Shown piece by piece: positions 1,008-25,238 of a stretch of DNA of 35,266 nucleotides. The stretch is from a virus. A model generated the notes under the pieces. The model ran no database searches and was not told the DNA's origin. It saw nothing but the letters and a program-made list of their open reading frames with translations. Made by a program: the position numbers and the translations under genes. The DNA is taken from positions 1-35,266 of the IMG/VR virus record IMGVR_UViG_3300007540_000041, one strand, 5' to 3'. Each line of letters begins with the position of its first letter. Position 1 is the first letter of the stretch.

Positions 1008-1026
1008 AAATAAGTCTGGTTAAAGA
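1008..1026 (+). repeat. 19-bp element AAATAAGTCTGGTTAAAGA, copy 1
   Basis: An exact 19-bp sequence repeated at 1068-1086, sixty bases downstream, and again inside a gene at 7474-7492. This copy and the gene copy match exactly over 24 bases (1003-1026 with 7469-7492). It could be a phage promoter or a protein binding site. The function is not known. Confidence 0.6.
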
Positions 1027-1067: not shown

Positions 1068-1086
1068 AAATAAGTCTGGTTAAAGA
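1068..1086 (+). repeat. 19-bp element AAATAAGTCTGGTTAAAGA, copy 2
   Basis: Exact direct repeat of copy 1 in the same orientation. Its end lies 171 bases before the first late gene start at 1257. Confidence 0.6.
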
Positions 1087-3301: not shown

Positions 3302-3955
3302 ATGGACTCATTTGTTTATTGCTGGACCAATCTAACCGATGAAAAGGTATACATTGGGTACCACAAAGGCGCAGAAGATGACGGATATGTCTGCTCATCA
3401 AGAAGCCAAGAATTCTGGGATGACTTTTACAATCCCGAAAAGGAATGGTCACGATCGATCATTGCTCATGGCACTAAGGGCGAGTGTCGCTCACTCGAAT
3501 CCGAAATGCTACACACATTATGGCAAGACCCTGAATGTTACAACTTATCTAACAATCATGGCGGCTTTACCGAAGGTGACATAGAAAAACATATCATTGC
3601 TATTAATTGTGATACCCTTAATATCTACGAATTTAAAGAAGATGATTCTTTAGAGGATCAAGGCTTTGACTCTACTATTGCTTACAGGCTTCTTTCTATG
3701 AAGGGATTAGGTACTCATAATGATTGCATTTTCTTATGGAAACCAGAGTATGTTAAAATGACTACCCCTGAACTCAAGAAGCATATAGTTCAGAAGACAA
3801 AGAATCGTTTTACAAGCTCAAAAGAATTAGAAATCGAAGGAATACTTTACCCTAACTCTGTAGTTGCTGGTGAAGCACTAGGCATCAAAGATCGCATGGT
3901 AAGATACCGTGTTGCTTCTACTTCTAAAAGATTTCAGGAGTGGAAACAATTATGA
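3302..3955 (+). CDS. GIY-YIG homing-endonuclease-like protein
   Basis: 217 residues. The N-terminus (YCW at 6-8, VYIG at 16-19) is the GIY-YIG nuclease core, followed by DDGYVCSS near 26-33 and a candidate metal-binding glutamate in LESEML (66 or 68). The C-terminus (about 178-215, with YPNSVVAGEALGIKDRMVRYR and FQEW) fits the NUMOD/helix-turn-helix DNA-binding repeat of phage homing endonucleases. The gene has a strong AGGAGG site and sits between phoH and the terminase, a typical place for a free-standing homing gene. Its stop overlaps the terminase start (ATGA). Homing activity is inferred; the arginine normally found in the core was not pinned down. Confidence 0.8.
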   Translation: MDSFVYCWTNLTDEKVYIGYHKGAEDDGYVCSSRSQEFWDDFYNPEKEWSRSIIAHGTKGECRSLESEMLHTLWQDPECYNLSNNHGGFTEGDIEKHIIAINCDTLNIYEFKEDDSLEDQGFDSTIAYRLLSMKGLGTHNDCIFLWKPEYVKMTTPELKKHIVQKTKNRFTSSKELEIEGILYPNSVVAGEALGIKDRMVRYRVASTSKRFQEWKQL

Positions 3956-5289
3956 TCACTATGCATCCCGGACAATCCGAAGTATTGCACGATTTATTCG
4001 TTAAGAAAACAAACAGATACGGCGTAGTCTGCGGTGGTCGAGGTTGGGGCAAATCCTATCTCGCGGCTACTGCGGCAATTCTCGCTGTACAAGAACTGGT
4101 AGCCTTACCTGCCAGTGTACCTAATAAAAATGTAGCTATTATTTGCCCTACATACCAGCAAGCAGTAGATATTTACTTCCCTTTGATCGCGTATCAAATG
4201 GGCATGGAAGAATACTGCGATAAGAGTTCACAACACTCAGGCACTTTTTGGTTCCCGAATAACGTTGTACTCAAGTTGTGGTCTTACGAGGCTTCACAGC
4301 GACTGCGAGGTAGCGGACAATACTTTGTAGTTTGTGATGAGGTAACTACTTGGCGTGGAGGAGGTTCAAGCTTGAAAGAAAGCTGGGAATCTGTTATTCA
4401 ACCTTGCGTAACAACTCGATGGTCTCCAGACCGAGCGAATGAGTACGGCGCAGTATCACCCGGTAGATCACTTATCATTTCTACTCCAAGGGGTAAAGAT
4501 TTCTTTTATGAAATGTTTAATTTCGAAGAAAGAGATAACCAATGGAAAAGCTACCATTTCACATACAGAGACTCCCCTTATCTAGACGCAAGCGAAATCG
4601 AACGTACTAAACACACTATTGACCACTTCCAGTTTAAGCGAGAATACGAAGCCTCTTTTGATGATTCAGGTAATAACGTATTTTACAACTTCAACAGGAG
4701 CCAACATGTTAGTAGAGATATCACCGAATTCATGGAAGGTGAGGATGTTCATATTGCTATTGATTTTAACGTTTCGATCATGGCCAGTTCAGTCTTCGCT
4801 CTTCGTGGGGGTCAACTCCACTTTATCGATGAATTCATGGGCCACCCCGATACGGAATCCTTGGCCAAGGCGATTGAAAAGAAGTATATACAAAAAGGAC
4901 ATAGAGTACAGTGCTATCCTGATCCATCGGGTCGCGCGAGAAAGTCATCAGCCGCTGTTGGTAGAACCGACTTCAGTATCCTAAACTCTTATGGTATACA
5001 GTGTAATGCGAGAAGCAAAGCGCCACCAATAGCAGATAGTGTACAAGCAGTAAACCGTATGCTTAAGCTTGGTGACGATTCAATCAATATGTATTTTCAT
5101 CCACGATGCAAACACACTATTAGATCTATGGAAAGAACCGTTTGGAGAGAAAATAACCCAGATAGTTTAACTGTAGATAAAAGCGAAGGTGTGGAACACT
5201 TTTCGGATGGCATTAGATATGCAACCGAGTACCTATTCCCAGTAAGGAGTGGTACAAAGTTTGTGTCGAAACAATCACATAATTTTTAG
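3952..5289 (+). CDS. terL: Terminase large subunit
   Basis: 445 residues from the ATG at 3952. This ATG overlaps the upstream stop (ATGA) and has AGGAG 11 bases before it. A GTG at 3940 would add four residues but lies within the ribosome-binding region. It is the DNA-packaging motor: Walker A GGRGWGKS at 28-35, Walker B VVCDE with D129 and E130. The C-terminal RNase H-like nuclease has acidic residues D271 (AIDFN), D324 (PDPSG) and D419 (FSDGIRY). All key residues appear present. The protein cuts concatemeric DNA and pumps it through the portal. No small terminase subunit is recognisable nearby. Confidence 0.95.
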   Translation: MITMHPGQSEVLHDLFVKKTNRYGVVCGGRGWGKSYLAATAAILAVQELVALPASVPNKNVAIICPTYQQAVDIYFPLIAYQMGMEEYCDKSSQHSGTFWFPNNVVLKLWSYEASQRLRGSGQYFVVCDEVTTWRGGGSSLKESWESVIQPCVTTRWSPDRANEYGAVSPGRSLIISTPRGKDFFYEMFNFEERDNQWKSYHFTYRDSPYLDASEIERTKHTIDHFQFKREYEASFDDSGNNVFYNFNRSQHVSRDITEFMEGEDVHIAIDFNVSIMASSVFALRGGQLHFIDEFMGHPDTESLAKAIEKKYIQKGHRVQCYPDPSGRARKSSAAVGRTDFSILNSYGIQCNARSKAPPIADSVQAVNRMLKLGDDSINMYFHPRCKHTIRSMERTVWRENNPDSLTVDKSEGVEHFSDGIRYATEYLFPVRSGTKFVSKQSHNF

Positions 5290-5400: not shown

Positions 5401-5541
5401 ATGGCTACTAAAAACGATGTAACTGGCGAGGCTATCAAGTCTCGTAATTCAACTCAACAATACCTTGACAATTGGGAAGCTATCTTTGGAAAGAAAGAAG
5501 CTAAACAAGAAGAAAAATCAAAGGACGAAGGAGATAAATAA
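5401..5541 (+). CDS. 46-residue mini-protein before the portal gene
   Basis: The ATG at 5401 follows a strong AGGAGG. It encodes 46 residues: MATKNDVTGEAIKSR, then a YLDNWEAIFGKK core and a charged tail. Short proteins with DVTG-IKS and IFGKK patterns lie next to portal genes in other phages, from general knowledge, with no known role. Its stop overlaps the portal start (TAATG), so the two are probably translationally coupled. The 110 bases between the terminase stop and this gene contain no other feature I can name. Confidence 0.7.
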   Translation: MATKNDVTGEAIKSRNSTQQYLDNWEAIFGKKEAKQEEKSKDEGDK

Positions 5542-7196
5542 TGGCTAATACCAATACCTCTGCGAATCGCTCTAAATCAGTAGCAGATCCGCATCCCCAG
5601 TATGAATCTCTAAAGCCACTTTGGAGAACAGCGCGTGGTATCCTTAACGGTCAATCACATGCTAAAGAATTAGATTCGATAGTAGATGCTTACAACTATA
5701 GTAACATTCTACTCCCGTTTAGCCCATCAATGACTGCTGAACAGTACAAGTTTTACAAAGCCGAAGCTGAGTTACCCGGCCTTACAGCACAGTACATTAA
5801 AGTACTTGTAGGTGGTATGCTCCGTAAGATGCCTGATATTACATTACCAGAAAGCGCACCAGAAGAGGCTTTAAACTGGTTGAAGCATTCCTTCACTTGC
5901 CATGATAATTCTATGCTGTCTTTCCTTGATGAAGCCTTACGTGAAGAACTACAAACCTCACGCGCATGGATTATGGTTGATTACCCTTCAGTACAAAACT
6001 ACGATATGCTTACCTTGGAAGAGCGCAAGACGCTTGCTCCCTACCCAGTATTGCTTAAAGCAGAATCTGTTGTTAACTGGAGGACAGGGCCACACCCCAT
6101 AACAGGCCAGCACACTTTACTTGCTTTAGTGGTTCGTAGCTATGAGAAGCACTACCGAGATAATCCATTGCACCCTGATTACATTGATACTGCTTGTGTC
6201 CATAGAATCAACGAACAAGGCTTATATGTGGTAGACAAGTATGAAAATACTGGTACTGCTGAGAATGTACACTTTATTAACGGTGTTGAGCAACAAGACT
6301 ACCAAGTATCCGGTGGGACTCATACTGCTAACAAATCAAGTAAGAGTGGTTGGAAACTAATTGCTACTTACGACAACATTATGGCTAGCGATGAACCATT
6401 GAAGCAAATACCTGCATTACCTTTGAACGGCAATATTGAAGGTGAAGAGCCTATGTTGATGCCTTTGATTGATCGTGAAGTATCTCTTTACAACAAAGTA
6501 TCACGTAGAAACCACCTATTGCTTGGTGCGGCTACTTACACGCCTGTTATAGTATCTGATATGACTGACGATCAATTCGAAGAGGTAGTATCATCTGGTC
6601 TTGGTTCATGGATCAAAGTTAATGCTGGCGACGATGTTAAAGCATTAGAAACCCCTTCACGAGCACTACGTGACATGGAAGCTGTTATTCAGAACAATAT
6701 TAACGAAATGGCTCGACTAGGTATTCGTATGATGGCGGCTGAAAACGGATCTGGTCGTGACTCAGGCGTTTCTTTAGAAATACGTAACGCTGGGCAATCA
6801 GCACTGCTCGCTTCTATCTCAACTAAAGTTTCTCAGCAAATGAGAAAGGTTATTTGTTGGATGATGAATTGGAAGTACGGTACTCAGTATAAAATAGAAG
6901 ACATTCACTTTAACTTAACTCCAGACCTTAACCCTGCACCTATCGGCGCTGACTGGTTGCGTCTCGTTACAGAATGGTATCAAAACGGTATTATCCCGCG
7001 TTCCACTTTCCTTGACATTGCAAAAGCAAATGATATCATTGACTCAGATTATGATGATATGAAAGGTCAAGAAGAGATTGGATTGGATGATTTAATTATG
7101 GGTGGCATGGATTCAATGCCGATGGACGAGGTTGTCCGTCAGCAAGAAGAGGCACCCGAAGTAATTACTAACGAAGAGGAAGACGAAGATGAGTAA
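5541..7196 (+). CDS. Portal protein (DUF4055-type)
   Basis: 551 residues, usual length for a siphovirus portal. The N-terminal half (FYKAEAELPGLTAQYIKVLVGGMLRKMP at about 70-97, then ALREELQTSRAWIMVDYP) matches the DUF4055 portal-like family as I know it. The C-terminal part carries helical stem and crown-like segments, ending in a very acidic tail (residues about 525-551). It would form the dodecameric ring through which DNA enters and leaves. Its position directly after the terminase supports the call. The end overlaps the next gene by eight bases. Confidence 0.87.
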   Translation: MANTNTSANRSKSVADPHPQYESLKPLWRTARGILNGQSHAKELDSIVDAYNYSNILLPFSPSMTAEQYKFYKAEAELPGLTAQYIKVLVGGMLRKMPDITLPESAPEEALNWLKHSFTCHDNSMLSFLDEALREELQTSRAWIMVDYPSVQNYDMLTLEERKTLAPYPVLLKAESVVNWRTGPHPITGQHTLLALVVRSYEKHYRDNPLHPDYIDTACVHRINEQGLYVVDKYENTGTAENVHFINGVEQQDYQVSGGTHTANKSSKSGWKLIATYDNIMASDEPLKQIPALPLNGNIEGEEPMLMPLIDREVSLYNKVSRRNHLLLGAATYTPVIVSDMTDDQFEEVVSSGLGSWIKVNAGDDVKALETPSRALRDMEAVIQNNINEMARLGIRMMAAENGSGRDSGVSLEIRNAGQSALLASISTKVSQQMRKVICWMMNWKYGTQYKIEDIHFNLTPDLNPAPIGADWLRLVTEWYQNGIIPRSTFLDIAKANDIIDSDYDDMKGQEEIGLDDLIMGGMDSMPMDEVVRQQEEAPEVITNEEEDEDE

Positions 7197-7433: not shown

Positions 7434-7634
7434 ATGAAAAAACCATACAAAAAGGCACCTGTTGCCGAAAAAGAAATAAGTCTGGTTAAAGAGGAAAAAT
7501 CATCTATTATTCAAGAGGTTAAGAAAGGTGATATTACTAAAGAGGGTATGGTTGTCGTAGATATTGTTGACGCTGACCGAGTTTTAGTTTCCAATAAGAA
7601 TTTAGCTAAAGTTATTTTCAAAAAAGATATCTAA
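7434..7634 (+). CDS. Small lysine-rich protein, paralogue of the previous gene
   Basis: 66 residues. It starts two bases after the previous stop. The segment GDITKEGMVVVDIVDADRVLV aligns with the previous protein's GDVSKCGMWEI segment, and both have a charged, lysine-rich N-terminus. The coding sequence contains a perfect copy of the 19-bp element found twice in the leader (here 7474-7492, encoding EISLVKE). The function is unknown. Confidence 0.6.
   Translation: MKKPYKKAPVAEKEISLVKEEKSSIIQEVKKGDITKEGMVVVDIVDADRVLVSNKNLAKVIFKKDI
7474..7492 (+). repeat. 19-bp element AAATAAGTCTGGTTAAAGA, copy 3 (inside a gene)
   Basis: An exact copy of the leader element, with 24 matching bases to leader copy 1. 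It ends 168 bases before the next gene cassette (7660), close to the 171 bases between leader copy 2 and the first late gene. Confidence 0.6.
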
Positions 7635-9336: not shown

Positions 9337-10040
9337 GTCACGGATTTCAAGTAATTAATAATAACAACTTTATACAAGTAGACGAAAAGTCTTCAGTATA
9401 TGCAATTGCCTTTACAGGGACAACAGGTACTATGCCTGCAGATTCTACATCGGGGTATTTTAGATCCACAATTAATTTAGGTTCAGGAAATAACTTAGTA
9501 AATTCCTTGCTTTGTGTACGCCCTGCGTCTACGTGGACAACCTCTGCAAAGAAAATATGGCGAGGCGGATTACCGGGCGTTGCAGGGCAGAATGTATTTG
9601 TATACAGCAATACCTCATCGGCTGTAGACTATTTTGTTATGAGAGACATGAGGGACGTAGTAAACCCTGCGGGTTCAGGGTACGGTATTGAGGTGTACGA
9701 CTCTACGGGGTCAAATGTGGTTTATAGCAGTAATAAAGAGGTTGGAAAAGCACATCAAACCATATCTGTACCCCCAACTACATCAGGTTCTTTTTTGTAT
9801 GATAGCGCATCTTATGATGCGAATATATACGGTATGTTAAATACCACGTTTTGGTCTAATGGTGTAGTAAACTCAGGGTTCTGGGGGCCTCAACTCTGGT
9901 TTTTTAAAGCAAGTGGAAGTTCCTCAAACTATAGAATACTTGTGCAATATGGGCAAATGCGTATAAACCCAACCCAGCAGGCTGCCCCTAATCATTCACT
10001 AGCAGATAGAGTATTTCTTTCCGCAAGAAGAGGAGTTTAA
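9333..10040 (+). CDS. Fibre-type protein with GYGxEVY domain
   Basis: 235 residues. The start overlaps the previous stop (ATGA), so translation is coupled. The N-terminal half is a beta-rich segment. GYGIEVYDSTGSNVVYSSN at about residues 113-131 mirrors the C-terminal domain of the upstream protein, so the two genes share a module. It has a Gly/Ser/aromatic composition typical of fibre tips. Probable receptor-contacting or decorating protein; the exact role is unknown. A tail-fibre assembly chaperone follows two bases later. Confidence 0.6.
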   Translation: MSHGFQVINNNNFIQVDEKSSVYAIAFTGTTGTMPADSTSGYFRSTINLGSGNNLVNSLLCVRPASTWTTSAKKIWRGGLPGVAGQNVFVYSNTSSAVDYFVMRDMRDVVNPAGSGYGIEVYDSTGSNVVYSSNKEVGKAHQTISVPPTTSGSFLYDSASYDANIYGMLNTTFWSNGVVNSGFWGPQLWFFKASGSSSNYRILVQYGQMRINPTQQAAPNHSLADRVFLSARRGV

Positions 10041-10042
10041 AA

Positions 10043-10474
10043 ATGGTAATAAGGATAGCTTGGGTTGATAGCTCAGGAAATATAAAACAATTATTTACTC
10101 CCGCAGATTTTAGCCCCTATGCTGAAGGGCAGGAACAAGAAGGATTAACACTTCAATATTGCGGGGACGGGATAACTCCTGATAGTCACTATTGGGATAA
10201 CGGTTGGCATGCAAAACCTGCTAAGCCCGGAGATTACTACGATTGGGTTAGCGGTGCGTGGGTGCTTAATTCAGATGTACTTCTTAGTATAATTCGCTTA
10301 AATAGAGATACTAAACTAATTGAGAGTGATTGGACAGTAATGCCTGATAGCCCGCTAACTCCTGCTAAAATAGAAGAGTGGGCAACATATCGCCAAGCAC
10401 TAAGAGATTTTCCTGCTACTAATTCAAATGCTGTAGATTTAGATAGCTTAATTTGGCCCTTAAAACCCAGCTAA
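10043..10474 (+). CDS. Tail-fibre assembly chaperone-like protein
   Basis: 143 residues. The C-terminal half (LNRDTKLIESDWTVMPDSPL and ATYRQALRDFP) is the signature of the Phage_tail_APC family, which helps fibres fold or attach. The N-terminal half has a WYDNGWHAKPAKPGDYYDW-like region (YWDNGWHAKP, YYDWVSGAWV) typical of fibre-associated proteins. It follows two fibre-type genes, as such chaperones usually do. A second member of the same family starts at 35023, after the tail-fibre genes, so the phage has two fibre and chaperone sets. Confidence 0.75.
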   Translation: MVIRIAWVDSSGNIKQLFTPADFSPYAEGQEQEGLTLQYCGDGITPDSHYWDNGWHAKPAKPGDYYDWVSGAWVLNSDVLLSIIRLNRDTKLIESDWTVMPDSPLTPAKIEEWATYRQALRDFPATNSNAVDLDSLIWPLKPS

Positions 10475-10492
10475 ATACAATAGGAGATTATC

Positions 10493-13400
10493 ATGGCACA
10501 AAACGTAAACGATAGTTTGTATGACCGAACTATAGACCACGTAGCTATGACCCGTCTGTTTGAAGAAAATGTTCAGACAGATACCAAACGTATTATACGC
10601 CGTCATCGACACCGCCTCACTAAGCTGCTTAAAGAAGGCACGATTGACCGCTTAACGTTTAAAAGAAAAGTAAAACCAGAGGTAAAAAGATTTACCGCTG
10701 AAATGAAACAAAGCCTTGTTCCGGGAATGAAAGACTACGCCCTGACTGAGGTAGACTTCACCACAAACAACTTAGCCAAATCTATTGGAGCTTACTCTAA
10801 CTTGAGACGGCCCGGCGCAACAAAAGTGCTGGAAGAGGTTGTAGGTGTTAATGTTCGGGGAGACGGAAATCTAGCCCAACGTATCCAAGGATTAGGCGCT
10901 GGCCAATTAACTCGTATGAAAACCGCTATTGATAGCGGCCTTGCTCAGGGATTAACAAACGAGCAAATCATAAAGAATGTTATAGGTAAGACCAGACTTA
11001 CAGAGGCTCAAGCTTCTGCCCTAGTCCGCACTGCAATAACTCGCACACAAACGTTATCTCAATTAGCTGTCTTAAAAGACAACGAAGAAATAATGAAAGG
11101 TGTTAGGTTTACAGCTGTATTGGATAGTCGCACAAGTGCAATCTGCGCTCACCATGACGGTAAGGTTTACGATGTAAACGATGACCGCTTTACCCCTCCT
11201 CTCCATTGGAGGTGTCGAAGCACTCTCGTACCTGTCGTTAAATCCCACGGTGAATTATTAGAAAGTACGTCTCCGAATATTAAAAAGAAAGTATTAAAAG
11301 ATCTTAGCGCCGCTGGTATTATGAGATTAAATGGCGCTACTCCTGCTCGTGAAAATTACGGACAGTGGCTTAAGCGTCAACCTAGAGATACAAAAGTTAG
11401 ACATTTCCAAGGTGATCTTCAGAAAGTAGATCTCTTTGATAATGGGCAGTTGCCTGTGGAAAGCTTTACTACAGCAAGTGGTAAACCACTCTCACTCACC
11501 GCATTGAGAAGGTTAGATAACAAAAACACTAACACAACTCCCATACGTCAAAAAGTACTTAGCTCTAAAACCATTAACGCGCTATCGATTAGTGCGGTGC
11601 GACCCTCTTCTTTGTTAAGAAATACTGACGCTCAAGAACAGCTGAAACTATTTTACAGAGCAGAATCAAGTAACACTAACTCGTTATTGTCGTTAACTGA
11701 CTATCGCGGCACTTCAATACCCGGTAAGAAGTCTACTCGTAGAAGAGCTAATAATCAATTCGATGAAAGAAACCAAGGTACAGACCCTATGACAGGTGAG
11801 ACTAAGTCTACACTTGTATACGATCCTGACTTTAAGGTTCTTCAAGAACGGCTTGATTACCTAGATCAGTCTAAATTGTTATCTGTAGATCAGAAAGAAT
11901 TTATTAAAAACTTTGCTACAAAATTAGAAACTGATGGCGTATCAGTTAACCAACAGTCTGTAATTATAGAAAACCTTCGTGTAGTATTTGAACGTTTCGC
12001 TAAAGATAAACAGCCATGGGAAAACTTTGCTGGCGTTTTAAGAGCAGAATTGAAAAACTCTGTAGTCAACACATCTCGTATTCTTGATCGAAGATCTCGC
12101 TCTCGTTCTAAGCTATTTAAGTTTGGAGCAAAAGGGGATGCTCAAATTCAAATTATGGGAGAGTGGACTACTGCCTCTGAACTCGCAAGTAGGACTCTAA
12201 GCAACCAAAGGTATGTTAGAGACTGGGCGGTAACTGACGGATTAGAGTTAGCAAGAAAGACTTACCTGCAAGGTAGATCTCCTCTCCGGAACTATTTCCC
12301 TAAGCTACCCTCGCTACCTGCATTACCTAGTGTTCGGGAGACTGTTTTAAAACAAATAGAGAAATTACCATTTGGTAAAGCGTTTATTCGTAAGTATGAG
12401 GGCAAGCCTAGCGATAGCGCTATTACTGCATTCCTACAAAGCGGCAGAGAAAGACTAAGAAGGTTTTTAGATCTGGAATTTGCATATGCTAAGAAAAGAG
12501 AAGACTTCATACAGTCTACAGCGACTCCGGAGTATCTTAAGAAGCGTATAAAAACAATGTCGGAAATAATGAAGGATATTGCTACGGGTAATTCAACCGA
12601 CTACGATTCGCTAGCTATTGCAATAGGTAAAAAGCTACACGAGTCAGAAATTTCTGTTGCTGATGTATTTTTTAAAGCACCTACACTGGCTGAATACCAC
12701 AAAATGGGTTCTAATATTCTCCAAGGTCTTAAAGACCAAGGCAAGATTAAAATAGGACTCAGAGGCGTGACCCGCCGTGGCGTAGTAGACTTGGATAGTG
12801 GCCGTAGTGGAATTGGTTCTTTCAAAGATACTATTTCTAGAGAAGTACAAATAGTAGACCCCTTGATGCTTCAACTGCAAAGAGCAAACAGGGAAATGAT
12901 TTTATCAAGAAGATTTGGCATTGTTAACCCACAAGACCGTTTATATGTTAAAGCAGGTGAAAAGAAATTCTTTGATGCAAAAGGCAATAAAACGGATATT
13001 AGTGTTATCACTCGAAAAGCTTCTGGTAATTACGATAAAGATCTAATTGACAAAGACTTCGCAAATATGCTGAATCATGCCATGGATGCAGAATGGGAAA
13101 TTGATCAGGACTTTGGTTCCTTTTTTGATGCCCTAGCGCACTTCCGAGACCCACGGGGTCAAGTAGCTAAATACGATGAGCTTAATAGTTTTCGTAAAGT
13201 ACTACTACAACGTGGTGAGATGGGTTCAGGGTTGATACAGTCAGTTCGATGGCATTTAGCTAATGATAAGCCGTGGAGAAACTGGGCGCAAATTGATGGA
13301 CGAGGACGAGTTTACACCCAAGGGTATTTACATCCTGCTGGTGGTGAATTTGTAAGGCCGTTTCTTAATACAGCGAAAGCAGTTAACATTGATGAAGTCA

Positions 13401-14935
13401 TTTTAAACGAATTAAGAATACAGTTAGGTACTCTAGTTGGTGAAGCATTTAGCGTCCTAACGAATAACGGGCGTATCGCTTCTTTTAACGCCAACGAAAA
13501 AGCCTTCAGAGAAATCGGAGAGATGTTGCTATCCACTACTCAACGAGATCGGAGGATTAGGGAGTTTTTAGAACACCCCCTAGTTGTTGCTACTGAAGCA
13601 GAAGAGATACCTAAGCTAGCAAGGTTTGCATTAGAATACACTCGTATTTACAATCACGTAGAAGGAGACTTTACTAATATAGCAAAGTTAAAAACCTACA
13701 AAACCAAACTAGGAAACGAAAATGATGCATCTGCATCTGGTGCACAGTTGATTGCCTTAACGACAAGAGACAGAGCATTAGCAGAAGCATCAAATGTAGT
13801 GGCTACAAACCGAAAGAATCGCCTGTACGATTTGGTTGCAGAACGCACAATGTCAGACCCCGCTTTCAGGAAAATTAATCCTATCGGAAACGACATTAGT
13901 TTTGGTGACCTTGCAAAAGGTGCCAAAGGGCAGTCGATGGTTGCATTCTACGGTGCTGGACAAGCTACACAGGCAGGTGCTATTGAAATGAAATTAGCAA
14001 AAGCACTTGCTAAACAAAACTACACAGTTATCTCTTCAAATGATTTGAGGGACTTTAATAAATCATTAGACCTTTCAATTAAGAAAGCTGATGCCGATGA
14101 CCTTCAAGCCACTGTGTTATCTCTTAAAGAATTGAAGAGAGAAATAAACTATTCTATTAACAATAACGCTCCAGTCGGAAACAGACTCCTTGCCATGGCA
14201 CAGGATATGCATCCCGATTCAGAGGAATTTGTTAGGAAGTTGACCAACGTTAAAGGTGGACTTATAGGGCCTCAACAATTTAAGCAAGTTGCTGAAATTA
14301 TGTCGGGGCACCTAAAAGACATCGCACCAGTAACGGAAAAATTCGTAGCATTCTGGAAAGACGTTGCGAAAGTTTACATCACGGAATCCAAGCAGGTTGA
14401 TATCCCTTGGGTCACGATGGATGGGAAGCTTTTGTTTCAACGATATAGACCTGTAGTTCAGGAAAGGATTGAATTTAGGGATCCTGTAACTGGGCGAAAG
14501 GTATCAAACATCTACGAAGATACAATTACAGATAGTAAGTTTATCGGTAATCAGTCTATAATAGGCGCTCGTAGTGGTTTAGGAGTAAACGGCAATCATA
14601 TGAATGATGCCACTATTGTTAGGCAATTCCATTTGTGGGGTAGAAAGAATCGTATTCTAACCTCTACTATTCACGATGGTTTTTACACTAACATAGCAGA
14701 CAGTATCAAAGCCAAATTTAAACTAAGAGAAATTTATGGTGATGCTATTGAAAGCGACTCACTTCTAAACACCCTCAAGGAAATGAGGAAACGCGGACTC
14801 AGCGATGAGTCTTACAAGCGGCTAGTTCAGAAAGCAATTGACGACGGCCTCTTGAACCCCGCTAATGGGGTAACACGCAACGACATCCTTGCTGAAATTC
14901 CAGAAGGATGGGATTGGTATGGTATTGGACCATAA
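10493..14935 (+). CDS. MuF-like minor head protein fused to a single-subunit RNA polymerase
   Basis: 1480 residues in one open frame, with an AGGAG site. The N-terminal 250 residues are a MuF/SPP1 gp7-type head protein: helical start, then VLDSRTSAICAHHDGK at 209-224 and PPLHWRCRS at 235-243. Residues about 300-900 are unassigned. The C-terminal part has T7-family RNA polymerase motifs: DGRGRVY at 935-941 (T7 DWRGRVY), motif A NDASASGAQ with D1078 (T7 D537), motif B K1145 and Y1153 in KGQSMVAFYG (T7 K631 and Y639, same spacing), H1369 with D1372 (T7 H784 and D787), and motif C HDGF with D1395 (T7 D812). Both catalytic aspartates are present. It may ride on the portal, enter the cell with the DNA, and transcribe early genes. 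Confidence 0.85.
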   Translation: MAQNVNDSLYDRTIDHVAMTRLFEENVQTDTKRIIRRHRHRLTKLLKEGTIDRLTFKRKVKPEVKRFTAEMKQSLVPGMKDYALTEVDFTTNNLAKSIGAYSNLRRPGATKVLEEVVGVNVRGDGNLAQRIQGLGAGQLTRMKTAIDSGLAQGLTNEQIIKNVIGKTRLTEAQASALVRTAITRTQTLSQLAVLKDNEEIMKGVRFTAVLDSRTSAICAHHDGKVYDVNDDRFTPPLHWRCRSTLVPVVKSHGELLESTSPNIKKKVLKDLSAAGIMRLNGATPARENYGQWLKRQPRDTKVRHFQGDLQKVDLFDNGQLPVESFTTASGKPLSLTALRRLDNKNTNTTPIRQKVLSSKTINALSISAVRPSSLLRNTDAQEQLKLFYRAESSNTNSLLSLTDYRGTSIPGKKSTRRRANNQFDERNQGTDPMTGETKSTLVYDPDFKVLQERLDYLDQSKLLSVDQKEFIKNFATKLETDGVSVNQQSVIIENLRVVFERFAKDKQPWENFAGVLRAELKNSVVNTSRILDRRSRSRSKLFKFGAKGDAQIQIMGEWTTASELASRTLSNQRYVRDWAVTDGLELARKTYLQGRSPLRNYFPKLPSLPALPSVRETVLKQIEKLPFGKAFIRKYEGKPSDSAITAFLQSGRERLRRFLDLEFAYAKKREDFIQSTATPEYLKKRIKTMSEIMKDIATGNSTDYDSLAIAIGKKLHESEISVADVFFKAPTLAEYHKMGSNILQGLKDQGKIKIGLRGVTRRGVVDLDSGRSGIGSFKDTISREVQIVDPLMLQLQRANREMILSRRFGIVNPQDRLYVKAGEKKFFDAKGNKTDISVITRKASGNYDKDLIDKDFANMLNHAMDAEWEIDQDFGSFFDALAHFRDPRGQVAKYDELNSFRKVLLQRGEMGSGLIQSVRWHLANDKPWRNWAQIDGRGRVYTQGYLHPAGGEFVRPFLNTAKAVNIDEVILNELRIQLGTLVGEAFSVLTNNGRIASFNANEKAFREIGEMLLSTTQRDRRIREFLEHPLVVATEAEEIPKLARFALEYTRIYNHVEGDFTNIAKLKTYKTKLGNENDASASGAQLIALTTRDRALAEASNVVATNRKNRLYDLVAERTMSDPAFRKINPIGNDISFGDLAKGAKGQSMVAFYGAGQATQAGAIEMKLAKALAKQNYTVISSNDLRDFNKSLDLSIKKADADDLQATVLSLKELKREINYSINNNAPVGNRLLAMAQDMHPDSEEFVRKLTNVKGGLIGPQQFKQVAEIMSGHLKDIAPVTEKFVAFWKDVAKVYITESKQVDIPWVTMDGKLLFQRYRPVVQERIEFRDPVTGRKVSNIYEDTITDSKFIGNQSIIGARSGLGVNGNHMNDATIVRQFHLWGRKNRILTSTIHDGFYTNIADSIKAKFKLREIYGDAIESDSLLNTLKEMRKRGLSDESYKRLVQKAIDDGLLNPANGVTRNDILAEIPEGWDWYGIGP

Positions 14936-15020: not shown

Positions 15021-15686
15021 ATGTCAAACGAAAACGAAACTAACTTAGAAGAAATTAAAGAAGAACAGCAAGCACCAGCAATGGATTCAGCTGAACTCAA
15101 CAAGATCATTCAAGCTCGTGTAGAAGAAGAACTTGGTGGGATCAAGGAAAAGCTGAACAGCGCCTATAGTCAACGAGACGAAGCAGTAGCTAAAGCTGTA
15201 GCTTTCGAGGAAGAAAAGAAAGCACAAGCAATTAAGGGTCTCGAAGCAGAAGGCAAGCACAAAGAAGCCGCAGATCTTAAAATAGCGGAAATGACTGCAA
15301 AGCTGGACGCTCGCGAAAAGCAAATCACTCAGTTAACTCGTGATAACGCTGTACGTGACGCATTGAAAGGCTTGGACTTCAGAAATGATACAGCGGCTGA
15401 TTTCGCTTATCGTGATGTAGTAGACCAGCTAATTCAAAACGAACAAGGTCAGTGGGTTCACAGAACTGGTTCTTCAATTAAGGACTTCATCGATAGCTTC
15501 CGAAAGGATGACGACAAAGAGTTTTTATTTAAACCTAAGCAATCCTCTGGAACTGGACAGCAAGCTCAGTCAGTTGCTACTGGAGGTTTTGATTCAACTA
15601 AATCTATCACTGAAATGACTACCGAAGAGATTATGGCAGCTGCTGCTGCAGGTCACTTTGATGATTCATACGGACGACAGATCTAA
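15021..15686 (+). CDS. Capsid scaffolding protein
   Basis: 221 residues, acidic, with a long coiled coil (about residues 20-110, rich in Glu, Lys and Ala). A basic/acidic C-terminal part ends in short helices (ITEMTTEEIMAAAAAGHFD). This composition and its place directly before the major capsid gene fit a siphovirus scaffolding protein (DUF4355 or Gp20-like). It would guide procapsid assembly and then leave. No protease gene or protease motif is visible nearby, so it may be released without cleavage. Confidence 0.8.
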   Translation: MSNENETNLEEIKEEQQAPAMDSAELNKIIQARVEEELGGIKEKLNSAYSQRDEAVAKAVAFEEEKKAQAIKGLEAEGKHKEAADLKIAEMTAKLDAREKQITQLTRDNAVRDALKGLDFRNDTAADFAYRDVVDQLIQNEQGQWVHRTGSSIKDFIDSFRKDDDKEFLFKPKQSSGTGQQAQSVATGGFDSTKSITEMTTEEIMAAAAAGHFDDSYGRQI

Positions 15687-15732: not shown

Positions 15733-16917
15733 ATGGCTATTTCTTCAAGTGCATTCGGCACACTTAATAAAGCAATCTCTGCTTACTCTGATGAAATGTA
15801 CACTCGTGCAAAGAAAATTGTATCTACTGATCTAGTAGGTATGGACGCTAACATCAATGCTAACGGCGAAGACTTCATCGGTCAGGTTCGTTTTTACAAA
15901 CCTTTGGGCGCTTACGCTGTAGGCGGCACTAACGCTTCTGCTGACGTTTCTGGCTCTAGCTCTACCGTTGTTAACGTTGCTTCTCAAGATGAGAACTACG
16001 GTGGCACTACTAACATCAGCACTGAAGTACAGACTTACATCAAGACTGTCCGTACTCACGGCGCTAATGAGTACCTCGTACAGAGCGTTATCTCTGGTGA
16101 AGACGGCATGGCTAAAATCGCTCGTGATTTCGCTGAGACTCGTGCGGAAGACGAAGATCAGGCGCTACGCGCTTGTCTGCAAGGTGTAATGAACACCGAG
16201 CTTAAGACTGCTAACGACATCACCGGTACTAAGTACAGCGATCGTTTTGCTGGTAACAGCGTAGACGCCGACGGTACTAAGTCTTTCGGTTACGTTGCGG
16301 CTTCTAGCGATACTATCGGCACTGGTTCTTCTCTGGAGAAGCTGGTTGACCTGAGTGCTTCTGCTCCCGGTCAGCGTGTTGAGCACATCATCCGCGCTAT
16401 GGGTGCATGGAGCGACTACACTCCTGATTTCGTATACATGGTTGTTTCCCCTGAAGTATACCTCGACATTAAAGTTGCCAACTTGGTTGACGACGAGCGA
16501 GTAACTGACGGAAACATCAGCTTCGAAACTCTGCTTGGCGGCGTTATTCGTGTAATTGTTTCACGTAACTTTGGCCAGTCTCTGGGTTCTGTAACTCACG
16601 CTGCACTGTCTGGTACTACTGCTATTACTACCGCTAAAGTATCTTACATGATGCTCCCCGGCTCTCTGTTCATGCACAGCACTGCTGTTCCTAACCCTGT
16701 TGCTATCGATCGTAACGAAGGTGTAGGTTCTGGTTCTGGCCGAACTACCGCTTGGTACCGTTGGGGCTATGTTATGCACGCTCGTGGTTACAGCTTTACT
16801 GGTACTCAGACTGCTTTTGCTACTAACGCTACATACGCTGGCTCTGCGACAACTCCTGCTTGGGAGCGCAAGTCTGACCTTCTTAACCTCGGCATCCTGC
16901 CAATCTTCCACGCTTAA
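15733..16917 (+). CDS. Major capsid protein
   Basis: 394 residues, starting MAISSSAFGTLNKAISAYS. Segments such as FYKPLGAYAVGG, the E-loop-like Gly/Ser region (about 58-85) and AWYRWGYVMHARGYSF near the end fit the HK97-fold capsid proteins of siphoviruses, with no long cleaved delta domain at the N-terminus. The codons are strongly biased to GCT, ACT, GTT, CGT and AAC, as expected of a very highly expressed gene and unlike the neighbouring fibre genes. Its place after the scaffold and before the connector genes supports the call. The leader (15687-15732) has repeated TAACTTAAC units. Confidence 0.88.
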   Translation: MAISSSAFGTLNKAISAYSDEMYTRAKKIVSTDLVGMDANINANGEDFIGQVRFYKPLGAYAVGGTNASADVSGSSSTVVNVASQDENYGGTTNISTEVQTYIKTVRTHGANEYLVQSVISGEDGMAKIARDFAETRAEDEDQALRACLQGVMNTELKTANDITGTKYSDRFAGNSVDADGTKSFGYVAASSDTIGTGSSLEKLVDLSASAPGQRVEHIIRAMGAWSDYTPDFVYMVVSPEVYLDIKVANLVDDERVTDGNISFETLLGGVIRVIVSRNFGQSLGSVTHAALSGTTAITTAKVSYMMLPGSLFMHSTAVPNPVAIDRNEGVGSGSGRTTAWYRWGYVMHARGYSFTGTQTAFATNATYAGSATTPAWERKSDLLNLGILPIFHA

Positions 16918-20255: not shown

Positions 20256-23200
20256 ATGGCATTACAAATTGAAGTACAAAGTAATACCAGACAAGCCCGT
20301 TCAGACCTCGCTAGGTTAAATAAATCGGTAGACAATATCTCTACTACAACAACTAATATGGCAAACAAGTTACAAAAATCTGTAACTATCTTAACGGCTG
20401 GTATAGCTGGTTTAGTAGCCGCTAAAGGCTTAGTAAAAATTACTGACCAATTTACTCTGGTTGAGAACAGAATCGCTCTCGTAACAGGTAGAACTAAAGA
20501 ACTAAACAAAACATTTAAAGAATTACAAGAAGTATCTATTCGATCTCGTGGTTCACTGGAAGGTATTGCTGACCTGTATAACCGAATCGGCAGATCTACT
20601 AAGAGCCTAGGTGTAAGTAACCAAGACGTAATTAAGGTAACTGAGACCATCCAGAAGGCAATCGTCATCTCTGGTGCTGGACGTGAATCCGCTAATGCGG
20701 CTATTGTACAGCTAGGTCAGGGTCTTGCCGCTGGTGCGTTGCGAGGCCAAGAATTAAACTCTGTTATGGAGCAAACACCACGAGTTGCAGCGGCTATTGC
20801 GGCTGAACTTAATGTGGGAGTTGGAGGTCTACGTAGACTAGCAGAGCAAGGAAAGATTACTTCTGAAGTAGTGGTTAGAGCTTTTACCTCTCAAAGAGAT
20901 ATTATTGAGCAAGAATTTGAAGCGGTTAACGCTACTGTAGGAGAAGGTTTTTCTCAGGTAGGCCAAGGTGCCGCACTGATGACCCGTGAGTTTATTGCCG
21001 GGACTGGTGCCGCAGATAGCTTTGCCAAGAAACTATTAAACCTAGGAGCATCGTTAACACGGGGCGCTCCCTCCGCTAGAGAGCTTGGTGAGGCTATAAA
21101 CAAGTTTCTCTTTGCACCTGCACCTAAAGACGGTATCTTCGGAAACCTCTTTCTAACTGCAGAAGAACAAATGTCGGGCTTTCAATTGCTCCTTAACGAT
21201 CTAGGGGTCTACAAGGCTGTTGACAGCTTTAAAGAACTAATAAACGTTGTTACTGAACTTGCTGATGACTTAAGTGATAAGGCATTGGGGAAAGTAGAAG
21301 CGTTCACTCAAGGCGTAAATGACGCTTTTTTCTGGGTGATGGATAAAGTAGTAGGTAACTCTTGGTGGCCCGATCTTGTTGATGGTGTAGTTAACTATAC
21401 TGACAACTTGGTTAAGGCACTATTTAAAGTAGATGACTTCACTTCTAAAGTATCTAGATCCTTTAGGAAAGCACTTAATACAGTATTAGACGATGCTGAC
21501 TCCCTTAAGAGTAAAGTACAAGACGGTCTAGTAGTAGCATTCACAGGATTGTCACTCGGTCTATCTGGTGCGTCTTCAGGAGGGCTTGGTATTGCGACTA
21601 GTTTAACCAGTGAGCTTTCTAAAGGTTCTGACTACATACGGTCTGAGTATCCTAAAGCATATGACTTTGCGGCATCAGCAGCAGCATTAACTTTAACTAG
21701 TCGTATTGGCGCTTTGAAGTTCTTATCATTACCATTAGCATTAGGTTCTGCTCTTGCGGCAGGGCTAGAGTCTGCTACTCTTTTAACTGCTATTGAAGAA
21801 GTTGCTCGTACTATATCAAACTCTATTGGTAGAGCTTTTGGTGCAGTTATTGCAAATCTGCCTAGTATCATCATAGGCGGTATAGCAGGTGCTCTTTCAA
21901 ACATAAGTCAAATAGGTTCTGCATTACTAGGTGAACTTGGCTTTATAGGGGATATTATTGGTTCTATACCTTTCGCTTCAACTATTGTTGGTTCACTTAC
22001 AGCGGCATTCCTAGTATTTAACTGGGGCGGTTCTTTATTTGGCGGCGCTTTTAAAACAGCAGTCATTAATGCAGGTAACTTCCTACTTAAAACAATAGGT
22101 TCTGCTAGACTTGCTGAAGAGTTTTTAAGCATAGGAGCTATAGGCAGTGCTGTATTTAACAAACTTAAAACAGTAGCAGTATCCGCAGGCTTAGCTATCC
22201 AAACTGCTTTCGCAGGACAGACTACTGTAGCAGGAATGATAGCTGTAGTTTCTACTTTGACGAAAGAGTTTATTACCTTAGCATCAGCGGTAGTTACAAA
22301 TGTTACTGCGTTTATTGCTAACAATGCGGCAATGGTAGCAGGTAGAGCATTGGCTCTTGGAGCTACTGTAGTAAACGGAGTACTTGCGGCTAGCTTTATA
22401 GGTCTTACAGGCGTAATATCTATGGTTACTGTAGCGGCAAGAGCTATGTGGTTAGCGTTAGGTGGACCTATTGCTATGCTTATAGGTGGATTAGGATTAG
22501 TCTTTGCGCTGTTTGGATCTACTTCAGCAAGCGCAGATAGTACTACAGAGGCTTTAGTTAAGACAGCTAATCAAGCAGATATGACTCGAAATAGCATTGC
22601 TAACTTATTTGGATTTGGCGTAGACTTGGATGTAAGATTGAATTATGATCCTGCAGACACAGAAGCTACTCTTCAAAGCATTGAAGACGCTAACGCAGAA
22701 ACCTTATATCGATTAAGAAGAGAAGAAAATGTAGGTATTTTCTGGTCTGATACAATTAATGATATTGTTACTCGATTGAAAATAGCAGTAACAGGTGCGT
22801 TCATCGGTATTAGAAACGGCTTTGTAGACTTTGCTAATGCGGGTATTGGTGCGTTTAACCTTATCTTTAACAAAGGTGTTGCTCCTTTTGAAAGGGACAC
22901 TCGTAATGCAGTAGAAACTTTGCTAGACAATATTAACCCTAGCTTACGTATAGACTTAGATATTTCTACTAAAGACCTTGAAGAGTTTGGCGATGACGAC
23001 TTAAAAGGATTATTCGTAGCGACAACTAGGGAACTTACTAGACTAGAAGGTGAATTAGCTAAGGCAGAAGATGGGTTCTTTAGCTTATGGGGCTTTTACA
23101 AAGATACTGCGGCGATAGACAAAGCGAACGCATTAATTGCTATACAGAAAAACCGTGTTGAATCAGTAACTAAAGCTTTAGAAAAGCAAGTCAAGGTTAG

Positions 23201-25238
23201 AAAGCTTGAAGCAGGTATTCAAGGTTCTTTTGATGCTCGATTAGAAAGCTTCAAAGAGATAATAACCTTCTACGGCAAAGAGCTTGTTCAAATGAAGGGC
23301 ATAGCGGATATGCAGAAGCTTAATGCGGCAGAACAATCTGCTTATAACGAGCTTTTGTCAGAAGCAGAAGTTATCATGGGTAACATAAAAGAGATCCAAG
23401 CTAACACTACGGATACTGATACTCGTAATGACTTAATCTCACAACAATTAGAAATGTTGGATGAAGTTAATTACCAGTTAGATCAAGTAGGTGTTAACTT
23501 AGAGAAATTCTCTTCCTTCGATTTAGCTACGGCTATGGGACTTGACGCTAATCTTGTAGGAAAACTTACGGATTCAGTACTCGATAAGATTACTAGTAAG
23601 CAACAAGAAATAGTAGATAAGGAAAGGGAAATTGCTGATATAAGAAGAAAAGGCGGAAACCTTGAAGGTCTCGATAGGGCACAAGCAGAACTTACTCAGC
23701 TCGAAAGAGAAGGGGATATTCTGGTTGAAGGTGCAGAACGAAGCCTTTTGTCTATGTTTAATACTCTAACTTCAGATCTGGCTGGATCTGATATTGCTAT
23801 TTCTGCTAATGAGTTCTTTGAGCTTGGACCTGAGTTGCAAACTCGTATTACTGAGTATGCGGCAAAGTTAAAAGCGGTTAACGACAAGATTGCTGGAGCT
23901 TTAGGCAATCCTGCAGTTCTTTCACAGCTTGAAAAAGACAAAAGTGAATTACAAGAGCAGTTTGGTGATGCACTGAATATCGATATTGACTTTGCTCAAT
24001 TAGATAACTTCGGTAAAGCGCTAGCACCTTTCCGTGACTTAGGTATTAACTTTAACGCTGATGATTTCTCTAACTTAGGTAAGACATTTAGTGCAGAGAT
24101 AATTGCTCAAGCTCAAAAGCTTAACGAGGAAAGAAGGGCACTGGCAGATCAAAACTTTGCTGATACTGTAGAAGGCGAGCAAGCTCGTATCGATGCTGTT
24201 GCTGATTTCAATAAGAAGCTGTATGATTTAGAAGAAGCAACTCGTAAAGCAAGAGAAGATGCGTTGCTAGGTAGACAAACTGCTGAAAACTTAGGTCAAG
24301 GCTTTGGTAAGTCTATCATAGATGCTATGACTGGCAGAGGAGACTTTGGTGAATCAATGGCGGCTCTGATCACAGGTAAACTAGAACAAGGTTTACAGGA
24401 TCGGATTGCTAGTTTTGCTGAAGGTTTCTTAGATTCATTCTTTGAAGCATTCTCTGGTAAAGACGGTATTATGGGTGGTCTTGCTGATGCGCTTAAAGGT
24501 CCTGACAATAAAGAAAAGGACGGACTTAAAAGTAGCGGAGCTAGTTTATTCGATAGTTTTGGATCAGGAAGTGGTGAAGAAGGAAGTGCAGAAGGTGGTA
24601 ATCCTGAAAAGGCGGCAACAGGTCTTGGAATGTTTACTGCTAAACTAGAAGAAAGTGTTGGTGGATTAGGCGGCTGGGTTTCTCAGACTCTTATGAACAT
24701 TGCACAATTCTTTGGTTTATCTACTGCAACTACTGCTCAAACTACTACTGCTACTTTAAATGCAACTGCATCTACTGCTCTTGCAACAGCTATGGCAGTA
24801 GCAACTGGTGCGACAACTGCACTCGCGGCGGCTATGTCAGCGGCGGCGGCAACCTCTCTTCTGGGTTTCTCTACAGGTGGTTACGTTAGTGGTGCAGGTT
24901 CAACTACTAGTGACAGTATCCTAGCTAGGCTTTCTGATAAAGAGTTTGTTATTAACGCTAAAGCAACTAAGAAACATCGTGGTTTAATTGAAGCTATTAA
25001 CAGTGGAAAAGACATCAGCAGACTACCCGGATTTAAAGATGGTGGTGCTGTAGACCTTTCTACTAGTTCAATGGCAGTAATGAGCGATGTTGCTTCTAGA
25101 CCTTCTCAAGGCAATCAAACCGTTCAAAACATAAACATTACTGGTGATATCTCAAGGCAGACCAAGAAGGAAATCTTTGGTATGCTGCCAACGATAGCAA
25201 CTGGTGTAAACCAACATAATAGAGAACAAAATAGATAA
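20256..25238 (+). CDS. Tape measure protein
   Basis: 1660 residues. The N-terminal part (about 60-220, with NRIALVTGRTKELNKTFKEL, LYNRIG, GALRGQELNSVMEQ and KITSEVVVRAF) is the standard tape-measure N-terminal domain. Several hydrophobic segments follow (about 480-760), then long helical coiled-coil regions (about 960-1380). The C-terminal FSTGGYVSGAGSTTSD and KEFVINAKATKKH motif is usual for tape measure proteins. It sets tail length, and parts of it enter the cell envelope during ejection. At the usual 0.15 nm per residue it predicts a tail of about 250 nm. I see no lysozyme or peptidase motif. Confidence 0.93.
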   Translation: MALQIEVQSNTRQARSDLARLNKSVDNISTTTTNMANKLQKSVTILTAGIAGLVAAKGLVKITDQFTLVENRIALVTGRTKELNKTFKELQEVSIRSRGSLEGIADLYNRIGRSTKSLGVSNQDVIKVTETIQKAIVISGAGRESANAAIVQLGQGLAAGALRGQELNSVMEQTPRVAAAIAAELNVGVGGLRRLAEQGKITSEVVVRAFTSQRDIIEQEFEAVNATVGEGFSQVGQGAALMTREFIAGTGAADSFAKKLLNLGASLTRGAPSARELGEAINKFLFAPAPKDGIFGNLFLTAEEQMSGFQLLLNDLGVYKAVDSFKELINVVTELADDLSDKALGKVEAFTQGVNDAFFWVMDKVVGNSWWPDLVDGVVNYTDNLVKALFKVDDFTSKVSRSFRKALNTVLDDADSLKSKVQDGLVVAFTGLSLGLSGASSGGLGIATSLTSELSKGSDYIRSEYPKAYDFAASAAALTLTSRIGALKFLSLPLALGSALAAGLESATLLTAIEEVARTISNSIGRAFGAVIANLPSIIIGGIAGALSNISQIGSALLGELGFIGDIIGSIPFASTIVGSLTAAFLVFNWGGSLFGGAFKTAVINAGNFLLKTIGSARLAEEFLSIGAIGSAVFNKLKTVAVSAGLAIQTAFAGQTTVAGMIAVVSTLTKEFITLASAVVTNVTAFIANNAAMVAGRALALGATVVNGVLAASFIGLTGVISMVTVAARAMWLALGGPIAMLIGGLGLVFALFGSTSASADSTTEALVKTANQADMTRNSIANLFGFGVDLDVRLNYDPADTEATLQSIEDANAETLYRLRREENVGIFWSDTINDIVTRLKIAVTGAFIGIRNGFVDFANAGIGAFNLIFNKGVAPFERDTRNAVETLLDNINPSLRIDLDISTKDLEEFGDDDLKGLFVATTRELTRLEGELAKAEDGFFSLWGFYKDTAAIDKANALIAIQKNRVESVTKALEKQVKVRKLEAGIQGSFDARLESFKEIITFYGKELVQMKGIADMQKLNAAEQSAYNELLSEAEVIMGNIKEIQANTTDTDTRNDLISQQLEMLDEVNYQLDQVGVNLEKFSSFDLATAMGLDANLVGKLTDSVLDKITSKQQEIVDKEREIADIRRKGGNLEGLDRAQAELTQLEREGDILVEGAERSLLSMFNTLTSDLAGSDIAISANEFFELGPELQTRITEYAAKLKAVNDKIAGALGNPAVLSQLEKDKSELQEQFGDALNIDIDFAQLDNFGKALAPFRDLGINFNADDFSNLGKTFSAEIIAQAQKLNEERRALADQNFADTVEGEQARIDAVADFNKKLYDLEEATRKAREDALLGRQTAENLGQGFGKSIIDAMTGRGDFGESMAALITGKLEQGLQDRIASFAEGFLDSFFEAFSGKDGIMGGLADALKGPDNKEKDGLKSSGASLFDSFGSGSGEEGSAEGGNPEKAATGLGMFTAKLEESVGGLGGWVSQTLMNIAQFFGLSTATTAQTTTATLNATASTALATAMAVATGATTALAAAMSAAAATSLLGFSTGGYVSGAGSTTSDSILARLSDKEFVINAKATKKHRGLIEAINSGKDISRLPGFKDGGAVDLSTSSMAVMSDVASRPSQGNQTVQNINITGDISRQTKKEIFGMLPTIATGVNQHNREQNR

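Follow-up and report, generated by a model that had tools for sequence, protein, structure and literature searches.

A phage gene joining a MuF-type head domain to a T7-type RNA polymerase, and a promoter-like element found in its relatives

Introduction

To our knowledge, virion-carried RNA polymerases (RNAPs) are known only in N4-like phages, where the enzyme is of the single-subunit type, and in phiKZ-like and crAss-like phages, which carry RNAPs of other types. The virion RNAP of N4 transcribes the early genes, including that of a second RNAP (PMC4496689, PMC12633501), and PMC5512222 states that virion RNAPs of the N4 kind are restricted to N4-like phages or prophages. Here we describe a gene from IMG/VR virus record IMGVR_UViG_3300007540_000041, of which the whole stretch of 35,266 bp (positions 1 to 35,266, hereafter the window) was analysed. 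The gene joins a MuF head domain to a T7-type single-subunit RNAP, and its product is referred to as MuF-RNAP.

The comparison with N4 concerns gp50 of that phage (Schitoviridae). Both proteins are single-subunit RNAPs of the T7 superfamily. Like gp50, MuF-RNAP is proposed here to travel in the head, to be ejected and to transcribe early genes, among them the gene for a second phage RNAP. However, gp50, from a short-tailed phage, is ~3500 aa long and depends on hairpin promoters in single-stranded DNA, whereas MuF-RNAP has 1480 aa, is fused to MuF, lacks the giant C-terminal region and is encoded by a long-tailed phage. Its polymerase domain is closer to T7-type RNAPs than to the N4 virion RNAPs, and an HHalign comparison with the gp50 polymerase region, for which the N4 side was a single sequence, gave no match (probability 0.1). 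With the T7/SP6-type RNAPs (PF00940) it shares fold, catalytic residues and motif spacing. Those enzymes are normally free early proteins, whereas here the polymerase is part of a head protein, the counterpart of R627 is replaced and identity to T7 is only ~15%.

The other half of the protein resembles the MuF/gp7 minor head proteins (Mu gpF, SPP1 gp7 and MuF polyvalent proteins) in its N-terminal MuF domain, its gene position and its enzymatic C-terminal extension. Several enzymatic extensions of this kind are described in the passages of PMC5512222 on MuF proteins, and a fusion to an RNAP is absent from those passages. The isolated phages DSS3_VP1 (QGH74596.1) and DSS3_PM1 (QGH74736.1; Naomviridae, Noahvirus) encode full-length homologues that are 45% identical and lie between the portal and the scaffold and major head genes; both are annotated only as 'minor head protein-like' and were deposited without mention of a polymerase. 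The window groups with these relatives (Naomviridae-like) by MuF-RNAP and by the conserved neighbourhood of portal, scaffold and capsid genes. No description of a MuF or minor head protein joined to an RNAP was found in a literature search that omits most subscription journals, and the paper on the EBPR phages makes no mention of RNA polymerase.

The fusion gene

The gene and its main divisions are as follows.

10493..14935, + strand: MuF-RNAP fusion gene, 1480 aa, one open frame from ATG to stop without an internal stop; 59 uninterrupted full-length homologues in other records
10493..11566, + strand: N-terminal MuF/gp7-like portal-associated head domain, residues 1-358 (phrog_241, head morphogenesis, E 3.3e-57)
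10916-11227, + strand: Pfam Phage_Mu_F core, residues 142-245 (PF04233, E 3.5e-13, 50.7 bits, cut-off 29.6)
11567..12409, + strand: middle helical region, residues 359-639, conserved in the family and matching no known family
12410..14932, + strand: T7-type single-subunit RNA polymerase domain, residues 640-1480 (Pfam RNA_pol, AlphaFold2 (AF2)/Foldseek, HHalign)

A MuF head domain and a T7-type single-subunit RNAP are joined in this one gene. The initial annotation had proposed a single unbroken frame with a MuF/gp7-like N-terminal domain, and both points are borne out: the frame runs over 1480 codons, the domain is recognized by Pfam as well as PHROG, and HWRCR is found at residues 238-242 as described. 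The H..CR motif is conserved in the MuF domain of the family. An AF2 model of residues 1-700 is too weak to be informative (predicted local distance difference test score (pLDDT) 75, predicted TM-score (pTM) 0.48), and a fold search with it returned no PDB match.

Among isolated siphophages, tblastn finds full-length homologues in DSS3_VP1 and DSS3_PM1; EBPR siphovirus 1 has one as well. At least 169 contigs in IMG/VR contain a relative of MuF-RNAP, and at 59 loci the whole fusion is read full-length without a stop. No relatives were found in bacterial genome contigs in a scan with two short peptide patterns only, and MuF-RNAP is therefore probably not a prophage gene.

The polymerase domain

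Several comparisons identify residues 640-1480 as a T7-type RNAP. Pfam RNA_pol (PF00940) matches residues 1063-1438 (E 1.2e-5, 24.7 bits against a cut-off of 22), with scores in relatives of up to 39.3 bits, and the PHROG family 'RNA polymerase' matches residues 933-1175 (E 5e-21), while the N4-like RNA polymerase PHROG is far weaker (E 1.7e-4). T7 RNAP is the top match in a search of the PDB with the single sequence (E 0.004) and reaches E 1e-5 with the family profile; profile-profile alignment by HHalign against free phage RNAPs together with those of T7 and SP6 gives E 4.6e-10. The structural match to a single-subunit RNAP on which the initial annotation had made its reading depend is present. 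In a Foldseek search of the PDB with an AF2 model of residues 640-1480 (pLDDT 83.2, pTM 0.79), the best matches are T7 and mitochondrial RNAPs, with E-values down to 1.4e-19 (T7 RNAP), a match at the level of the fold, with TM-scores of ~0.5, a high root-mean-square deviation and ~15% sequence identity to T7. Among viral structures, T7-type phage RNAPs are better matches than N4 virion RNAPs, the DSS3-type homologue itself aside.

The motifs of the T7 family are located as follows.

13295..13309, + strand: DGRGR motif, residues 935-939, aligned with DWRGR of T7 RNAP
13724..13726, + strand: D1078, aligned with the Asp of T7 FDGSCSG (metal-binding D537)
13925..13951, + strand: motif B/O-helix, K1145 to Y1153, with a spacing of eight as in T7
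14420..14575, + strand: presumed counterpart of the T7 specificity loop, residues 1310-1361, by alignment position
14597..14608, + strand: H1369 to D1372, aligned with T7 H784 and D787
14672..14677, + strand: H1394-D1395, aligned with catalytic T7 H811-D812

In an alignment of 42 sequences, in which identity to the window across the polymerase domain ranges from 47 to 83% among the relatives, D935, R937, R939, D1078, K1142, K1145, Y1153, H1369, D1372, H1394 and D1395 are invariant in all 42. The initial annotation held that the key T7-family motifs are all present in order, and each residue that it named is indeed at the position given. It did not mention the counterpart of T7 R627, four residues before the motif-B lysine, and this one is not conserved: position 1141 holds A, Q or S. 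The adjacent invariant lysine, K1142, may replace the motif-B arginine. Identity among the window, DSS3_VP1 and one further relative (G1) is ~50-57% in the polymerase half versus 37-42% in the MuF half. Selection seems to maintain this half of the protein as a functional polymerase.

Intron-type insertions

In four relatives (EBPR siphovirus 1, G022, G031 and G039) the MuF-RNAP frame is broken at the codons of the O-helix, at about residues 1146-1150. The insert records are as follows.

G022 (L272), G031 (L271), G039 (L273) and L003 15176-15402: inserts at the same O-helix codons

Searches against Rfam give a group I intron match for three inserts (E 1e-20 to 1e-26) and, for the insert of EBPR siphovirus 1, one at E 1e-8, which is under the curated score. 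Three inserts contain endonuclease frames, annotated as an HNH endonuclease in EBPR siphovirus 1 and endonuclease-like in G031 and G039. Conserved catalytic codons of essential genes are the typical site of homing introns. The break in the EBPR siphovirus 1 frame is an intron-type insert within a catalytic motif and not a split at a domain boundary.

G039 contains a second group I intron-type insert near the 3' end of MuF-RNAP (L273 5039-5259). The gene for a separate, free T7-type RNAP, described below, is also interrupted in G014, G030, G031 and G038, where it is found in two pieces ~0.7-0.8 kb apart with the break at residue ~265-270 or ~529, and both polymerases may therefore be intron targets. 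An Rfam search of the window itself gave no match.

Position among the head genes

The genes of the virion region of the window that were assigned by Pfam or PHROG are as follows.

3940..5289, + strand: terminase large subunit (Pfam/PHROG match)
5541..7196, + strand: portal protein (phrog_145, E 6e-51)
15021..15686, + strand: head scaffolding protein (phrog_206, E 9.8e-13)
15733..16917, + strand: major head protein (phrog_247, E 2.2e-22)
20256..25238, + strand: tail tape measure protein, 1660 aa (Pfam TMP_3, E 1.2e-51)

The order in the window is terminase, portal, MuF-RNAP, scaffold, major head protein, adaptor, tail tube and tape measure, and DSS3_VP1 likewise has portal, MuF-RNAP, a hypothetical gene and coat. 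MuF-RNAP occupies the MuF slot among the portal, scaffold and major head genes, and in all nine records tested the fusion holds the sole MuF domain found. The 1660-aa tape measure gene marks the virion as long-tailed.

A second polymerase and two repeated elements

DSS3_VP1 and five large relative contigs encode, besides MuF-RNAP, a separate free T7-type RNAP of ~720-735 aa (PF00940, E 1e-74 to 1e-82; QGH74624.1 in DSS3_VP1). Two promoter-like elements, M1 and M2, were recognized. M1 is found mostly in non-coding stretches and resembles the SP6 promoter; it would fit as the promoter of the free RNAP. In DSS3_VP1 it reads ATAGGTKRCGTTAAAGARGGG or a close variant, in about ten copies (MN602266.1 2240-59220), and in three relatives (G1-G3) it reads ACCAGGGGACGCTAAAGAGAG. 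The window contains an M1-like repeat, AAATAAGTCTGGTTAAAGA, in three exact non-coding copies.

1008..1026, + strand: M1-like repeat AAATAAGTCTGGTTAAAGA, candidate promoter of a free T7/SP6-type RNAP
1068..1086, + strand: M1-like repeat AAATAAGTCTGGTTAAAGA, second copy
7474..7492, + strand: M1-like repeat AAATAAGTCTGGTTAAAGA, third copy

M1 varies by clade; M2 does not. M2 is a ~36-bp element, AAAAAGTGAGAAAAnTnnGYATCTATAATRnAAGAAA, first noticed in DSS3_VP1 just past the tape-measure gene; the two DSS3_VP1 sites are at 35,797 and 36,244. It is present in 1-4 copies per contig and is near-identical across clades. With a weight matrix made from nine copies, and built without the two sites of a relative 73% identical to the window (G5), M2 sites score 28-54 bits and the next best sites score below zero in every genome except one (G8), which has a single intermediate site of 16 bits. 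Exact M2 is found in eight of nine records picked by protein, the exception being the distant, partial EBPR record, and there were no control matches. An exact scan of 2.9 million viral contigs yielded at least 120 stretches, many of them holding 2-5 copies, while the reversed pattern gave 15 matches, all of them single.

Among 32 contigs selected by M2 alone, 14 contain MuF-RNAP, including all seven of those of at least 55 kb, and 16 of the other 18 contain the free RNAP. Selection by M2 alone recovers the DSS3_VP1-type phage group. In the 29 contigs with both features mapped, each of the 44 M2 sites precedes the free RNAP gene on the same strand, at a distance of 0.8-8.1 kb; in the 73%-identical relative (G005, the G5 of the matrix) M2 is present and the free RNAP was not seen on its contig. 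Because of the matrix scores, the enrichment in the scan and this position, M2 is, on the sequence evidence, a promoter-like element of the phage group that heads the region making the free RNAP. In these relatives, as in N4, a second phage RNAP is encoded downstream of a candidate early promoter. None of four M2 copies examined for a hairpin forms a stable one (z between -1.0 and 1.05), so that M2, if it is the promoter, would differ from those of N4 gp50 in being non-hairpin.

Proposed role of MuF-RNAP

The initial annotation had suggested the logic of N4 in a different build. The free T7-type RNAP of the relatives and the promoter-like M2 upstream of it are added evidence that favours such a reading. 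MuF-RNAP would be a portal-associated minor head protein in which residues 640-1480 are predicted to form an active T7-type RNAP. As part of the protein in the MuF slot, the polymerase would come to lie at or close to the portal within the head during assembly, and it would exit together with the DNA upon ejection. Once inside the cell, it would recognize double-stranded M2 and transcribe an early operon that includes the free RNAP gene, and the free RNAP would then read its own SP6-like, clade-specific M1 promoters in the late and replication regions.

M2 presumably acts before the free RNAP exists, and its reader should therefore be either the host RNAP or MuF-RNAP. Since M2 co-occurs with MuF-RNAP and stays constant while M1 varies by clade, we infer that MuF-RNAP is the better candidate. 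Overall, it seems probable that MuF-RNAP is a portal-bound virion RNAP that is ejected with the genome and transcribes the early genes, including the free RNAP, from M2. With somewhat less confidence, these phages may be taken to represent a second, independently evolved class of ejected single-subunit virion RNAP, found in long-tailed phages, in which a T7-type RNAP fused to the portal-bound MuF protein would use a conserved double-stranded, non-hairpin early promoter of ~36 bp and start a cascade of two polymerases independent of host RNAP.

Such a system would be a further and simpler way to package an RNAP, employed by long-tailed phages that form a widespread group. With the polymerase tied to a protein already on the portal, packaging would need no separate signal. 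It would also mean that the long tail lets a large polymerase through, whether folded or unfolded. M2 and MuF-RNAP may be a new phage promoter/polymerase pair, in a phage (DSS3_VP1) reported to have deoxyuridine instead of thymidine in its genome (PMC12697855).

Several observations weigh against this interpretation. The window covers only part of a genome and does not reach the early region, and M2 and the free RNAP are known from its relatives only. M2 is lacking in EBPR siphovirus 1, the most distant homologue, which is a partial record. The specificity-loop region of MuF-RNAP is no more conserved than the rest of the domain, and the protein side therefore gives no support for recognition of M2 by MuF-RNAP. 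In addition, M2 carries a perfect TATAAT in all copies collected, under a search pattern that demanded TATAAT, and could be read by host sigma-70 RNAP.

Alternative explanations

This last observation is the basis of an alternative in which host sigma-70 RNAP transcribes the early region from M2 and the head-bound polymerase is otherwise employed, for instance in pulling in the genome by transcription or as a primase. Host-first transcription is the rule in T7 (PMC4496689), which is a precedent for such an arrangement, as is the exact -10 consensus for recognition by the host enzyme. However, M2 has no -35 box. When 146 distinct sites were compared with TTGACA at spacers of 15-19, 104 had at most two of six matches, 142 had at most three and only four had four, and an extended -10 was found at none of the 146. 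The ~36 bp of conservation at fixed spacing, part of which is set by the search pattern itself, also goes beyond the needs of a host promoter, and the M2 sites seen so far all belong to this DSS3_VP1-related group. Transcription of the early region by the host enzyme is consequently considered unlikely, although it deserves to be kept in mind.

Alternatively, the fusion could be a translational arrangement, in which cleavage during head maturation or an internal start releases a polymerase that acts late in the same infection and is never packaged. Cleavage of head proteins is common among phages, and the middle region (residues 359-639) could hold a cleavage site. Against this, the relatives already encode a free T7-type RNAP for a late role, the polymerase is still fused to MuF in all 59 full-length relatives, and the frame break in EBPR siphovirus 1 is the intron-type insert described above. 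A merely translational arrangement is thus quite improbable.

It is more doubtful still that the polymerase half has degenerated into a relic or serves as a DNA-binding spacer retained for structural reasons. The loss of the arginine corresponding to T7 R627 would agree with decay, but the remaining catalytic residues checked are invariant in the 42 sequences, the intron-type inserts occupy O-helix codons of this half, and it is the better conserved half of the protein; we attach very little weight to the idea. Finally, an assembly or sequencing fusion of two genes, which the initial annotation had named as a possible flaw, is rejected as having practically no chance of being correct, the identical junction being present at the 59 loci and in the isolated phages DSS3_VP1 and DSS3_PM1, with nothing found in its favour.

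Neighbouring genes

Three genes lie between the portal gene and MuF-RNAP in the window (7660-10474) and are not at this place in DSS3_VP1. They encode a 558-aa protein without a family match, a protein that matches PHROGs of unknown function and a tail-fibre-assembly-like protein. In some relatives tRNA genes are found directly upstream of MuF-RNAP: approximately five are clustered there in G022 (L272 5372-6161), and both DSS3_VP1 (MN602266.1 21063-21138) and DSS3_PM1 have tRNA-Asn at this position. In DSS3_VP1 (MN602266.1 4390-6410) the terminase large subunit is annotated in two pieces around a small gene, possibly indicating another intron; in DSS3_PM1, unlike DSS3_VP1, it is one gene.

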